64,000 nucleotides of DNA, from positions 3,410,001 through 3,474,000 of the forward strand of contig NZ_CP095491.1 in NCBI RefSeq assembly GCF_023028105.1, given 5' to 3'. Source of the stretch: Halosolutus gelatinilyticus. GTDB taxonomy: Archaea > Halobacteriota > Halobacteria > Halobacteriales > Natrialbaceae. This document shows, in pieces, positions 30,560 to 38,669 of the stretch; the stretch's first letter is position 1; each line of letters begins with the position of its first letter. Made by a program: the position numbers and the translations under genes. The notes under the pieces are model-generated. The model made no database searches. It was not told the origin of the DNA and saw nothing but the letters and a program-made list of their open reading frames with translations.

Positions 30560-31324
30560 TTACCGCTTGTCCGGCCGCTCCGTCGCTCGCCGCAAGATTC
30601 CGAGCAGCGTGTTCACTTCGCGTTCGGTGAGGTCAGCGCGACCGAAGACCCGCCGGAGCATCCGCATCGTCTTCTCGCGTTTTTCCGCTGGATGGTTGAG
30701 TTCCGCGAGCAGCGCACCCCACTGGTCATAGAGCCGATCGATCGCCGGTTCGGGCGCCCGGACCCGCTCCAGGTCCGGAAGCTGGGTATCGTCGGCGTCC
30801 AGCGCGAGCGATCGCAGTTCGTACAGCGTCACCGTCGCCGCCTGACCGAGGTTGAGGACGGGGTACTCGGCGGCGGCCGGAATCGAACAGATCTCGTCGA
30901 TGCGGGCGAGTTCCTCGTTGGTCAACCCGACGCGTTCGCGTCCGAAGACGAGCGCCGTCGGCGCCTCGACCGTCGGTAACCGCACCGCGAGATCGGCGGG
31001 CGTGGAGTACGGAAACCGGACGTGATTGCGATCGTCTTCGTTCGTTACCGCCGTACAACCGATCGTGTGGTACTCCTCGGCGAGTCGATCGAACGTCAGT
31101 TCCGTCGCGTTCGGAAGGACGTCCTCGCGCGCGTGACCCGCGAAGCCGTACGCCTCACCGTCGGGGTCCAGTTCCGGCGGGTCCACGAGCAGGAGCTCCT
31201 CGAATCCGAAGTTCTTCATCGCCCTCGCGATCGTTCCCACGTTTCCCGGCGTCTGCGCGTCGACGACGGCGACTGCCGGCGGCGTGCGATCGGGACCGTT
31301 CGAGTCGACGGATTCGCTGCTCAT
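30560..31324 (-). CDS. trmJ: tRNA 2'-O-methyltransferase TrmJ-type (SPOUT)
   Basis: A 254-residue SPOUT methyltransferase. The N-terminal motif PGNVGTIARAMKNFGFEEL, the middle FGRERVGLTNEEL and the SAM-knot region SIPAAAEYPVLNLGQAATVTLYEL are the TrmJ/TrmH signatures. A helical C-terminal extension of about 80 residues (EKTMRMLRRVFGRADLTEREVN) is typical of TrmJ, which methylates position 32 of tRNA. It is read leftward away from the origin region. Confidence 0.9.
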   Translation of the reverse strand: MSSESVDSNGPDRTPPAVAVVDAQTPGNVGTIARAMKNFGFEELLLVDPPELDPDGEAYGFAGHAREDVLPNATELTFDRLAEEYHTIGCTAVTNEDDRNHVRFPYSTPADLAVRLPTVEAPTALVFGRERVGLTNEELARIDEICSIPAAAEYPVLNLGQAATVTLYELRSLALDADDTQLPDLERVRAPEPAIDRLYDQWGALLAELNHPAEKREKTMRMLRRVFGRADLTEREVNTLLGILRRATERPDKR

Positions 31325-31592: not shown

Positions 31593-31673
31593 TACACTAC
31601 TCTTCTCTCGTACACCAGTCTCCTACACTACTCCTACACTAGTAGTGTGACTAGACTAGCACTACTAGTCTAG
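31593..31673. repeat. CTAG-rich tandem repeat and double hairpin
   Basis: A perfect 11-bp tandem repeat CTCCTACACTA (31620-31630 and 31631-31641) runs into the inverted repeat ACACTA-G-TAGTGT (31636-31648) and then a 9-bp perfect hairpin CTAGACTAG-CACTA-CTAGTCTAG (31651-31673, arms 9 nt). TACACTACTC also occurs at 31593-31602. Five CTAG tetramers fall within 35 bp, although CTAG is rare in haloarchaeal DNA. Confidence 0.75.
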
Positions 31674-31924
31674 GGAGGTGGACTCGATAGATCGGGGTTT
31701 CCCTCGTCTTTTCCGGTAGCCATGCTAAACAAATGGTCCCGAACAGGCGGATCGTCGAACGGGTTCGGTGCTGATTGATAGGTCTGAGAACAGATAGGGT
31801 GAAAAACAGGTAGTGATCGCTAGATACCGATCGAACCGCGTTCTGCGCCGAAATGGGCCGTTATATGCGGTAACCCGTCTGACTCACGTCTGATGTGAAC
31901 GTCGAGTGAGTAGTGAGACGGGGG

Positions 31925-31946
31925 CACACCCCCGTCGCGTTTGTAA
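31925..31946 (-). repeat. ORB-like element A
   Basis: Reverse complement begins TTACAAACGCGACGGGGGTG; it matches the other three copies at TTACA, the CGCGA core and the G-rich GGTGTG end, with two or three changes. Confidence 0.65.
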
Positions 31947-31978
31947 GACCAATTGTGTGCGGAAGTACTGGACGGATA

Positions 31979-32000
31979 CACACCTCCGCCGCGGATGTAA
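31979..32000 (-). repeat. ORB-like element B
   Basis: Reverse complement begins TTACATCCGCGGCGGAGGTG, one base different from element C over the whole 22 bp. Confidence 0.75.
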
Positions 32001-32071
32001 AATTCCGCGATCGACGGCCGTTCGAGCCCGAATTTCGCCGATCGGTCGAACACCACCCCGCCTCTTTTCCG

Positions 32072-32093
32072 TTACATCCGCGACGGAGGTGTG
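32072..32093 (+). repeat. ORB-like element C
   Basis: TTACATCCGCGACGGAGGTG followed by TG. Opposite orientation to A and B; the B-C pair forms a large inverted repeat with a 71-bp spacer that would be the likely unwinding site. Confidence 0.75.
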
Positions 32094-32357
32094 TGCGCCG
32101 TACTCGCGGCGGTTGGCCCGTCGTCATAACGCGGCGGACGATCGATGGCATGATCCACATTCGATCCGCGCGGACCGATGTGCTCTCGTTTCGAATCGTG
32201 CGGATCGGCGTTGCCGATCCTGTTCAACTGGTTCTCTCGGCCGTTTCGGCGGCTGTATAGTGGTTTTCGGATCGACGGCGGCATCGTTCGTCGCGTCTTC
32301 TCTCGTCGGTATCGAACCCGGACCCGTGACTCCACACTGAAATGCGTATCGGTTCCG

Positions 32358-32379
32358 TTACATCCGCGAGGGGGGTGTC
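32358..32379 (+). repeat. ORB-like element D
   Basis: TTACATCCGCGAGGGGGGTG followed by TC, same strand as C, with a longer G-string. It lies about 190 nt upstream of the orc1 ATG. Confidence 0.7.
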
Positions 32380-32566
32380 CGTCCCCCGCTCCTCGAGCGG
32401 ATGGTTCCGGAGATCCGTCAGTTAGAAACGCGATGCCGGCGGGTCGTTCGAATACTTACCAATACGGGTCCTCAGGGGCTGTTACGGCGCTCGAATACCG
32501 TATTTACACCCGCGATCGATCTCCATAGCTTTATTTCAATCGAGTTGGAAGGGACGGGGTACTGCA

Positions 32567-33796
32567 ATGTCCGTGAACGACGATCGTGATCCACTCTTTC
32601 GGTACGACGATCCGGTGTTTGCCGACGAGCGGTTGCTCGAGATCACGCACCTCCCCGGCCCGGACCGGATCGTCGGACGCGACGAGCAGATGCAGCGGGT
32701 AGCGGACGCCCTGAACCCGGCTATCTTCGGGAGCGAGCCCAACCACCTGTTCATCTTCGGGAAAACCGGCACCGGAAAGTCGCTCATCTCGCGGTCGGTC
32801 ACCAAGCGCGTGATCTCCGAGGCCGAGCGCGACGACATCCGGGTGAAGTACGCGTTCATCGACTGCGGCGAACAGAACACCGAGGCGTCGATCGTCAAGA
32901 CGATCGCCCAGCTCGTCAACGAACCCGACAGGAGCGGGATCACCGTCCCCGATCGGGGGCTGGGTACCGGCGACTACTACAAACGGCTCTGGGAGGCCGT
33001 CGACAACTGCACCGACGTGACCATCGTCATCCTGGACGAGATCGACATGCTCGAGGACGACGAGGTGCTCCGAAAGCTCTCCCGGGCGGGCGAGAACCGC
33101 CGGATCTCGAACTCGAGCATCGGAATCATCGGCATCTCGAACAAGATCGACTTTCCGGATCACCTCTCCGAACGGGTCAAGTCCAGCCTCTCGCGGGATG
33201 AACTCGTCTTCTCCCCCTACGACGCGAACCAGCTCGTCGAGATCCTCGAAAAACGCCGCGACGCGTTCCACGACGGGGTGCTGTCGGAGGACGTGATCCC
33301 GCTCACGGCCGCCCTCGCCGCCCAGGAACACGGTGACGCACGGAAGGCGATCGACATTCTCCGGAACGCCGGCCGGATCGCCAAGAAACGAAACGAGACG
33401 CGCGTCACCGCGGAGCACGTCCGCGACGCGAAGGAGAAGACGGAGGCCGATCGATTCAACGAGTTGATCGAGGGCTCGCCGCAGCAGGCTAAGGCCATCC
33501 TGTACTCGCTGACCCTGCTGACGGAGAACAGCTCCGAGAAGGAGTTCCCGACGAAGATCATCTACAACCAGTACAAGGAGATCGCCCGCCGGCTCGATTT
33601 TGACGTGCTCTCGGAGCGGCGCGTCCAGGAGATCCTCCAGGAGCAGAACTTCCTCAACGTGATTCAGTCCGAGCGCGAGGGACGCGGGCGCGGGCGCGGC
33701 GCTCACGCGAAACACCGACTGCTCGAGAACCCGTCGATCGTCAAGAAAGTGCTCCTGCGAGACTCGCGGCTGGCGGTGCTCGAAGACGACGGCTGA
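32567..33796 (+). CDS. orc1: Orc1/Cdc6 replication initiator
   Basis: A 409-residue AAA+ initiator. Walker A GKTGTGKS is at 65-72, Walker B VILDEID at 154-160, sensor I near GIIGISNKIDF and the arginine-finger region around LSERVKSSL. The AAA+ lid (YDANQLVEILEKRRDAF) follows and the C-terminal winged helix spans about 310-409 (EILQEQNFLNVIQ). It would bind the ORB-like repeats immediately upstream and load MCM. A TATA-like CTTTATTTC (about 32528-32536) lies about 33 nt upstream of the ATG. Confidence 0.96.
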   Translation: MSVNDDRDPLFRYDDPVFADERLLEITHLPGPDRIVGRDEQMQRVADALNPAIFGSEPNHLFIFGKTGTGKSLISRSVTKRVISEAERDDIRVKYAFIDCGEQNTEASIVKTIAQLVNEPDRSGITVPDRGLGTGDYYKRLWEAVDNCTDVTIVILDEIDMLEDDEVLRKLSRAGENRRISNSSIGIIGISNKIDFPDHLSERVKSSLSRDELVFSPYDANQLVEILEKRRDAFHDGVLSEDVIPLTAALAAQEHGDARKAIDILRNAGRIAKKRNETRVTAEHVRDAKEKTEADRFNELIEGSPQQAKAILYSLTLLTENSSEKEFPTKIIYNQYKEIARRLDFDVLSERRVQEILQEQNFLNVIQSEREGRGRGRGAHAKHRLLENPSIVKKVLLRDSRLAVLEDDG

Positions 33797-33874
33797 TTCG
33801 ATCGACCGGAAGCAACCCTCGCGACGGTTCGCCGGAACCGCGGCGCCTTTTTGTCTCCCTTTCCCAGCACCAGT

Positions 33875-35068
33875 ATGAACAGCGTCGACGCCGCCGGACT
33901 GGGGATCGGCGACGAGTACCCGCCCCGGATCATGGGCGTGTTGAACGTCAGCGAGGAGTCCCCGTACGATCCGAGCGTCTACGACGATCCCGGGGAGGCG
34001 GCGCAGTACGTCGACGAGGAACTGATCGGCGAGGGCGCCGACATCGTCGACGTCGGGCTCGAATCCGCGAACAAGCGCTTCGACGTGCTCTCGGCCGAGG
34101 AAGAACTCGACCGGCTCCACGTCGCGCTCGAGACGATCGAGAGCGTCTCCGGCGATGCGGTCTTCTCGATCGAGACGCGCTACGCCGAGGTCGCTGAAGC
34201 GGCTCTGGACGGGGGATTCGACATGGTCAACGATATCTGCGGCTTCGCCGATCCCGAGATGCCCCGCGTCTGCGAGGAGTACGACGTCGCCGTCACGAAG
34301 ATGGCCAGTCCGCCGGATCTCGAACGACCCGGTGCGGTCGAGGAGACGCCCTGGGCCGAACGGAAGTCCGAGGAGTGGGCTGTGCGGGCCGACTACGTCG
34401 ATCGGGTGTACGAGGCGTTGAAACAGAACGGCATCACCGACAAAACGATCGTCGACCCGGCGTTCGGCGGCTGGAGCGAGGCCCAGACGCTCGCCGATGA
34501 CCGCGAGACTTTCCGCCGATTACGGGAGTTCCGCGCGCTCGGCCAGCCGATGCTCGTCTCGATCAACCGGAAGAACTTCCTCGGCGCGATCGCCGGCCGC
34601 GAAACCGAGGAGCGACTGCCGGTCAGCCTGGCCGCCACGTCGATGGCCGTCGAGCGCGGCGCGCACGTGATCCGAACCCACGACGTGGCCGAAACGCGGG
34701 ACGCGGCGCTGATCGGCGAGGCGTTTACCGACCGGCGGTCCGTCAGAACCGACTCGCTCTCCGTCGCCGACGTGAACGTCCGATCGAATCGGGAACTTCG
34801 GCGGTACCTCGCCGAGCGGGGGATCGACCCGGCGACGGCTGACGACTGGCGGTCCCGCGTGCTCGAGATCGAGGGACTCGACCCGGTGGCCGGCCGCCGT
34901 CTGGCGTCGATCGCGACCGAGTCAGGGGTCGACGAGCGCCGCGTGGACGCCGATCGCGTCGTCCTGTCGGGGTCGACGACGACGCTATCGGACGTCTCGA
35001 CGCGTCTGGACGGCGAAGACGACGGTCTCGATCGGATACGCGTCATACTCGCTGAAATACTACAGTAA
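33875..35068 (+). CDS. folP: dihydropteroate synthase-like protein
   Basis: A 397-residue protein. The N-terminal 270 residues are a DHPS TIM barrel with PRIMGVLNVSEESPYDPS, EGADIVDVGLES, DMVNDICGF, IVDPAFGGW and ERGAHVIRTHDVAETRDA, all recognisable DHPS segments. About 120 residues extend past the barrel (RSNRELRRYLAERGIDPATA ...), beyond bacterial FolP length. It may act in folate or tetrahydromethanopterin-type pterin synthesis; the downstream mptE supports a pterin pathway. The ATG at 33875 is about 28 nt after a CTTTTTGTC box. Confidence 0.88.
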   Translation: MNSVDAAGLGIGDEYPPRIMGVLNVSEESPYDPSVYDDPGEAAQYVDEELIGEGADIVDVGLESANKRFDVLSAEEELDRLHVALETIESVSGDAVFSIETRYAEVAEAALDGGFDMVNDICGFADPEMPRVCEEYDVAVTKMASPPDLERPGAVEETPWAERKSEEWAVRADYVDRVYEALKQNGITDKTIVDPAFGGWSEAQTLADDRETFRRLREFRALGQPMLVSINRKNFLGAIAGRETEERLPVSLAATSMAVERGAHVIRTHDVAETRDAALIGEAFTDRRSVRTDSLSVADVNVRSNRELRRYLAERGIDPATADDWRSRVLEIEGLDPVAGRRLASIATESGVDERRVDADRVVLSGSTTTLSDVSTRLDGEDDGLDRIRVILAEILQ

Positions 35069-37511: not shown

Positions 37512-38669
37512 CTAGAAGAGCGCGTCGAGTTCGCCGCTGGTATCCATCAGCGAGTCGAAGTCTCGGTGCGCGGTCGTGCGGATCTGTTCGGTTCTGTCCT
37601 GCGCTTCGATCGCGACCTGCTGGAGTTGCTTGATTCGCGGAACCGCCGTGACGCCCGAGAGGAGGACGATCGCGCCGACGTCGTCCGTCGGGGGGTTCGG
37701 GAAGTCGCCGCCGCGGATCTCCATGCTTCCCGTCTCCTCTTCGAGCCACTGACGGCCCCGTTCGACGCCTTTCCGATTGAGGTGGTCGGCAGGACCGGTG
37801 GCGACGACCAAGCCTCGGTCGGCACTCGAGACGTCACACGGGAGGGTGAGACGACCGAGGGTCGCCTTCCGGACGAGACTCGTCATGCGGTTGACCGACT
37901 GGCTCTCGTCGAAGTCGTCGCCGTCGATGAACGACGAGAGCAGACCGCCGCCGGTGTCGACGGTCTCGCTGGCGTAGCCGATCGTCGAGACGCCCCCGGA
38001 GAGCGTGTTGATGATCTCCGAGGAGTCGACGACGCTCTCGGCGACGTGATCGCCCTCGTCGACCTCGCCGGCGGCGAACAGTAGCCCGAACCGTTCGACG
38101 ATCTCGCGGTTGATCCGATCGTAACCGCTCTTGACCGATTCGCCGGTGCTCCGCCAGACGTCGTTGTCGAAGACCAGCAGGTTGTCCACCTCACGGACGA
38201 ACGTCTGGAACGATCGAGCCGCGTTCAGCGTGTAGATCCCCCCTTCGTCCGTTCCGGGGAGGATTCCGAGGCCGTAGACGGGGACGGTGTAAATTCGCTT
38301 GAGGTGTTTCGCGAGGACGGGGGCGCCGCCCGAGCCCGTCCCGCCGCCCATGCCGGCGGCGATGAGAAACGCGTCGATCTCGTGGACCGGGATTCGATCG
38401 ATCGCGCCCTGGATCTCGTCGACGTCCTCCTCGGTGATCTGCGCACCGAGTTCGTTGTCGGCGCCGACGCCGTGTCCCTTGACGCGCGCCTGTCCGATGA
38501 GTACGCGGTTCCGTTCCGGAACGTTCTCGAGCCCCCGGAGATCGACCGTCGCGGAGTTGACCGCGATCGCCGATTCGACGAAGCCGCCGTCCGTCCGCTC
38601 GTCGAACGCCAGGAACTCGTCGACGACCTTCCCGCCTGCCTGACCGAAGCCGATGAGTGCGAGTTTCAT
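37512..38669 (-). CDS. cetZ: tubulin-like cytoskeletal GTPase CetZ
   Basis: A 385-residue FtsZ/tubulin-superfamily protein. The N-terminus MKLALIGFGQAGGKVVDEF is the CetZ form of the nucleotide-binding strand, and the tubulin signature GGGTGSGG is at residues 108-115. VYGLGILPGTDEGGIYTLNA and LSGGVSTIGYASETV are further CetZ landmarks. CetZ proteins control cell shape and motility in haloarchaea rather than division itself. Monocistronic, read away from the peptide-binding protein gene; no clear TATA at 25-30 nt. Confidence 0.92.
   Translation of the reverse strand: MKLALIGFGQAGGKVVDEFLAFDERTDGGFVESAIAVNSATVDLRGLENVPERNRVLIGQARVKGHGVGADNELGAQITEEDVDEIQGAIDRIPVHEIDAFLIAAGMGGGTGSGGAPVLAKHLKRIYTVPVYGLGILPGTDEGGIYTLNAARSFQTFVREVDNLLVFDNDVWRSTGESVKSGYDRINREIVERFGLLFAAGEVDEGDHVAESVVDSSEIINTLSGGVSTIGYASETVDTGGGLLSSFIDGDDFDESQSVNRMTSLVRKATLGRLTLPCDVSSADRGLVVATGPADHLNRKGVERGRQWLEEETGSMEIRGGDFPNPPTDDVGAIVLLSGVTAVPRIKQLQQVAIEAQDRTEQIRTTAHRDFDSLMDTSGELDALF

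Follow-up and report, generated by a model that had tools for sequence, protein, structure and literature searches.

The intergenic region upstream of an orc1/cdc6 gene in Halosolutus gelatinilyticus is very probably a chromosomal replication origin that is distinct from oriC1 and has its own initiator. The 64,000-nucleotide stretch that we analyzed (the window, C1:3410001-3474000) belongs to the 3.907-Mb contig C1, one of four contigs in a 4.76-Mb genome whose closest relatives are Natrialbaceae. Reading the site as a probable origin is supported by its anatomy, by the co-occurrence of this Orc family with its ORBs, by a plasmid on which the pair provides the sole annotated initiator and by a replicating clone of the orthologous segment from Natrinema J7. 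In fact, the replicator and its initiator form a real and well conserved pair, of a type already known, with an ORB spelling of its own.

The region lies between a trmJ-type RNA methyltransferase gene (30560-31324, minus strand) and an intact orc1/cdc6 initiator gene (32567-33796, plus strand; 409 aa, with Walker A/B, sensor and winged-helix regions preserved), which is followed on the right by folP, encoding dihydropteroate synthase (33851-35068, plus strand), and an mptE-like gene. From the trmJ end at 31324 to the orc1 start at 32567, 1,242 bp hold many spurious short ORFs and no credible gene, which bears out the gene-free region of 1.2 kb described by the initial annotation. About 4 kb downstream of orc1, window positions 37512-38669 (minus strand) encode an FtsZ/CetZ-like protein that scores below the TIGR00065 cut-off.

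Four 21-bp elements with the consensus TTACATCCGCGACGGGGGTGT occupy this space, two on each strand in an inverted array: ORB1 (31926-31946, minus strand; TTACAAACGCGACGGGGGTGT, kept as TTACAAACGCGAgGGgGGTGTGT in 44 aligned arrays), ORB2 (31980-32000, minus strand; TTACATCCGCGGCGGAGGTGT) 54 bp from ORB1, ORB3 (32072-32092, plus strand; TTACATCCGCGACGGAGGTGT) 92 bp from ORB2, and ORB4 (32358-32378, plus strand; TTACATCCGCGAGGGGGGTGT), whose distance from ORB3 differs among species. All four are located and oriented as first annotated, and that count holds for full ORBs; it fails as a total, because a degenerate fifth ORB and a half-ORB bring the elements to six. G-strings are present at the ORB ends (GGGGGTGT / GGAGGTGT), weakly so in ORB2 of many relatives. 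Thus, the fit to haloarchaeal origin architecture proposed at the outset stands: at least two ORB-like repeats with G-strings lie in inverted arrangement directly beside an orc gene whose product exceeds 300 aa and has AAA+ and wH domains, as is the case in haloarchaeal orc/cdc6-adjacent origins. Because their spelling differs, these elements are not canonical oriC1-type ORBs (GAAACnnnGGGG). None of 100 dinucleotide shuffles of the window produced a match, and the four ORBs were the sole matches in the whole genome at up to two mismatches, the repeats being absent from unrelated loci at this threshold; six further sites at three mismatches look like chance matches. No paper on haloarchaea turned up in a literature search for the motif.

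In profile searches, the window Orc1 reaches 413 bits against TIGR02928 and passes the cut-offs of Cdc6_C and Cdc6_lid; its closest solved relatives are Aeropyrum Orc1 and Sulfolobus Cdc6-1. It is one of nine Orc1/Cdc6 homologues in the genome (ten matches, two of which are parts of one gene). Most Natrialbaceae carrying this type of Orc share it at 93-96% identity, and it is missing from 7 of 24 Natrialbaceae (E 1e-150) and from 163 of the 243 genomes of the order (E 1e-140), which rules it out as the universally conserved Orc1. That role belongs to a 592-aa protein at C1 1.539 Mb, found in 35 of 35 genomes searched. The window site was accordingly rejected as the universal oriC1, which lies 1.9 Mb away with its own Orc1 and ordinary ORBs (C1 ~1.541 Mb; an inverted pair of GAAACGAAGGGG type, TTGAAACGAAGGGGTGGGGGTGT, ~310 bp apart). 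Of the label "probable oriC" given initially, the origin part is supported and the definite article is lost, the universal oriC1 being elsewhere on the same chromosome. Since the window-type Orc is absent from many genomes and is not the universal Orc1, the site represents a second, non-oriC1 origin family.

The other orc loci of the genome look different. The product of the universal Orc1 gene (C1:1538925-1540697) has a long acidic low-complexity insertion. An orc gene on the 562-kb contig (C2:95035-96249) is flanked by iteron-like direct repeats ~41 bp apart (CCCCGTGTGCGAGATGAATT and similar) and not by inverted ORBs, and the closest paralogue of the window Orc (C3:38832-40016, 50% identity) is flanked by direct repeats of yet another ORB spelling (CACACCGTATTTCCGGTGAA). 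The main chromosome has two divergent orc genes (C1:1285427-1286446 and C1:2379803-2380789) that lack convincing ORB-like repeats nearby and possibly encode non-initiator Orc proteins.

The ORB spelling and the Orc family go together. Across the 243 genomes of the order, at least two ORB matches were found in 78 of the 80 genomes with a window-type Orc (the other two had one match) and in none of the 163 without it, five of which had a single weak match. The suggestion that the spelling could be specific to this Orc1 lineage was therefore right. The pair also travels on plasmids: window-type orc genes occur on plasmids in Haloprofundus, Haladaptatus, Haloferax and three Natrialbaceae, no plasmid copy outside Natrialbaceae reaching 80% identity, the level required of an Orc in the oriCa and oriCb families of Wu et al., and Haloprofundus plasmids of 48-52 kb carry the Orc-ORB pair. 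Haloprofundus salinisoli has a 48-kb plasmid whose only annotated replication initiator, in a gene table that is incomplete, is the window-type Orc, with ORB matches adjoining; a related plasmid of Haloprofundus MHR1 has a second Orc. Four Natrialbaceae that lack the pair still have trmJ next to folP. A clean empty site was rejected there: the two trmJ-folP gaps that we read, ~0.65-0.7 kb long, hold a gene-like stretch in place of ORBs and orc1, apparently another conserved gene, which points to replacement or loss and not to precise insertion.

The layout of the array is conserved, and its elements recur across genera. Of the 57 related loci in which ORBs could be detected, 43 have the order minus-minus-plus-plus, and throughout the Natrialbaceae order and orientation are kept, with ~54 bp from ORB1 to ORB2 and ~92 bp from ORB2 to ORB3; the distance from ORB3 to ORB4 ranges from less than 80 to ~600 bp across loci. 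The G-strings face outward from the ORB2-ORB3 spacer, the same polarity as at oriC1 of this genome. One relative, genome G022, has three perfect full ORBs (C1 1569738-1569904) ~700 kb from their Orc gene (2266791-2268191), which retains one ORB and a half-element. In this genome, origin core and initiator are separated by nature, which shows that the core and the promoter part can come apart.

Closer to orc1, we aligned 48 related loci to obtain a footprint, which revealed the degenerate fifth ORB-like element (32422-32433, plus strand; TTAGAAACGCGA), of a pattern that 33 of the 48 relatives have within 200 bp of orc1, and a half-ORB lacking the G-string (32504-32515, plus strand; TTACACCCGCGA). 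Counted from the start codon of orc1, the half-ORB is at -63, a position kept to within one base in 46 of 48 loci; 1.2 Mb of sampled chromosome contain its pattern a single time. A TATA-box-like TTTATTT in the orc1 promoter (32530-32536, plus strand) begins 26 bp after the half-ORB start, the same distance being read from the sequences of Natrialbaceae and of Halorussus aquaticus. In fact, the half-ORB is spelled like the ORBs next to it: it is ATACATCCGCGA in Halorussus, matching the local ORBs, TTACAGCGGCGG in Halomarina (local ORBs TTACAGCGGCGA) and ATACATTCGCGA in Halogranum (local ORBs TTACATTCGCGA). This is the trace expected if the same protein bound both and restrained its own gene, and because the half-site covaries with each family's ORBs, autoregulation of orc1 is predicted.

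By analogy with Sulfolobus oriC1, the 71-bp spacer between the inverted ORBs (32001-32071) is presumed to be the helicase-loading site. With 38% AT (35% for the window, family mean ~50%), it is not supported as a strongly AT-rich melting element in this genome. The least stable DNA of the region is a CTAG-rich inverted-repeat stretch (31610-31677), a candidate unwinding and methylation element, and in this genome, as in 45 of 48 relatives, the least stable 60 bp are to the left of ORB1. Over the family, this flank has 13.7 CTAG per kb, against 0.33 per kb in sampled chromosome of this genome and 0.03 per kb in orc coding sequences. It cannot be aligned between species, so that composition and not sequence is what has been kept. 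Five CTAG also lie between the ORBs of oriC1 in this genome, a density of five in 400 bp being reached by one of 60 sampled 20-kb stretches; the Halorussus and Halomarina copies of the window locus have no such cluster. A gene at C1 3.7047 Mb, encoding an N6/N4-type methyltransferase with SPPY motif, is a candidate for the CTAG enzyme. Haloarchaea have a conserved orphan CTAG methyltransferase, whose general role has been doubted (PMC5867850).

On the chromosome, the site lies almost opposite oriC1. Of 21 chromosome-size contigs, 20 have their window-type orc 0.40 of the circle or more away from oriC1 (median 0.46; here 0.487), placements that are not independent, since most are at the same trmJ locus and position is partly inherited; a p-value computed as if they were independent is therefore not to be relied on. 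In a genome without the pair (G012), trmJ is ~0.41 of the circle from oriC1 by hand computation. This near-diametric placement would suit a chromosome with two origins and arms of balanced length, short of proving one. The inflection in GC skew expected by the initial annotation did not appear: GC skew, gene-strand bias and strand-corrected third-position skew, computed on 60 sampled 20-kb stretches and the window, show none at 3.44 Mb and equally none at oriC1. Given that oriC1 itself leaves no inflection, the skew test is powerless here.

Several observations weigh against an origin: the missing skew inflection, the low yield of the Natrinema J7 orthologue (below), the 38% AT of the spacer and the absence of the pair from 7 of 24 Natrialbaceae. 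Rarely used back-up origins have been described for some Haloferax and Haloarcula, and the window site could be one of these, dormant or weak, its machinery intact and its firing rare, with oriC1 carrying most of the load. The silent skew, the relatives without an Orc-ORB pair and the J7 result would all suit such an origin, which we nevertheless consider rather unlikely, given the strong purifying conservation of ORBs and spacing and the position opposite oriC1 in 20 of 21 chromosomes. The J7 result itself deserves a closer look. The segment known there as oriC9 (ARS-5, cloned in pFJ5) is orthologous to the window locus (PMC5350488), both ARS-5 primers matching the N. gari locus without mismatch, at the two ends of a segment that runs from trmJ to slightly beyond orc1. 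The yield of pFJ5 was below 10 cfu/ug, yet the construct was recovered as a plasmid and thus replicated weakly; pFJ2, which carries the oriC1 region and one primer of which matches the universal Orc1 locus, gave zero transformants in the same study (PMC5350488), so that the assay understates chromosomal origins. At oriC2 of Haloarcula, moreover, a homologous plasmid can be incompatible with the chromosome's own copy. Together, the barren oriC1 clone and a possible plasmid-chromosome incompatibility make low ARS counts weak evidence.

The array might also serve Orc regulation or titration alone, as a means of orc1 autoregulation with no replication start, for which the oriC2D region of Haloarcula offers a parallel. 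A half-ORB located at the promoter is in line with this, as is genome G022, where the full ORBs are ~700 kb from an Orc gene that retains its promoter-side elements. However, an inverted pair at fixed spacing goes beyond the needs of autoregulation, a 48-kb plasmid has no other annotated initiator system than this pair, and the J7 clone replicated outside the chromosome, all of which makes a purely regulatory role improbable. Chance repeats or a dispersed repeat family, to which the shortness of the elements might lend itself, are refuted by the shuffles, by the uniqueness of the elements in the genome, by their conservation across genera and by the Orc-ORB co-occurrence, and we give them practically no credence.

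If the site is an origin with its own initiator, as we favour, the Orc1/Cdc6 encoded at 32567-33796 would bind the four ORBs, with G-strings outward from the 71-bp spacer, and the rigid ORB1-ORB2-spacer-ORB3 core would position it for MCM loading. The nearby CTAG/AT-rich stretch would aid DNA opening, and two forks would depart. A further Orc molecule, bound to the half-ORB by the TATA box, would damp orc1 transcription and make the initiator self-limiting. More tentatively, we envision a self-limiting replicator, in which orc1 is repressed by its own product at a half-ORB without G-string that stands a fixed distance ahead of the TATA box and co-evolves with the ORBs, and in which, in Natrialbaceae, the separate CTAG block beside the ORBs, and not between them, acts as a methylation-sensitive melting element; we consider this combination somewhat less likely than not. 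If true, archaea would have an equivalent of dnaA autoregulation and Dam/GATC control, at a second origin opposite oriC1. Archaeal chromosomes with multiple origins are known; to our knowledge, hardly anything has been learned of how each origin's own initiator is restrained. As the half-site tracks the ORB spelling over several families, autoregulation becomes directly testable, and genomes with and without the pair, with origins ~180 degrees apart, provide a natural experiment on why archaea add origins. The ORB motif supplied here is also one that, if the J7 study is a guide, mostly escapes a standard origin finder: for J7 oriC9, Ori-Finder 2 listed a single ORB (PMC5350488), whereas four full elements and a half-element are present in the N. 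gari copy.

How does the site compare with other known origins? Wu et al. 2012 (PMC3528665) predicted origins beside 102 of 154 haloarchaeal orc genes, and these may include relatives of the window site. Like those orc/cdc6-adjacent, non-oriC1 families, found on chromosomes and plasmids, it has G-string ORBs in the intergenic region of its own orc/cdc6 gene and a spelling specific to its Orc family; it differs in being spelled TTACATCCGCG and not GAAACnnnGGGG and in its added promoter half-ORB. It shares inverted ORBs, outward G-strings and a CTAG cluster with oriC1 of the same genome, which has another Orc (43% identity in part), another ORB spelling and one ORB per side ~310 bp apart with the CTAG cluster between them, whereas the window cluster lies outside. 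Sulfolobus oriC1 (PMC12141716) likewise has an inverted ORB pair, its outer edges ~130 bp apart against 113 bp here, around a highly AT-rich spacer with a ucm motif, neither of which is seen in the window spacer. CTAG clusters upstream of haloarchaeal orc1/cdc6 genes were reported by Blow et al. 2016 (PMC4752239), an enrichment that the window shares and that can here be narrowed down to a block lying beyond the ORB core. This placement of the CTAG block, the co-varying promoter half-site and the two-origin geometry are the new parts of the finding.
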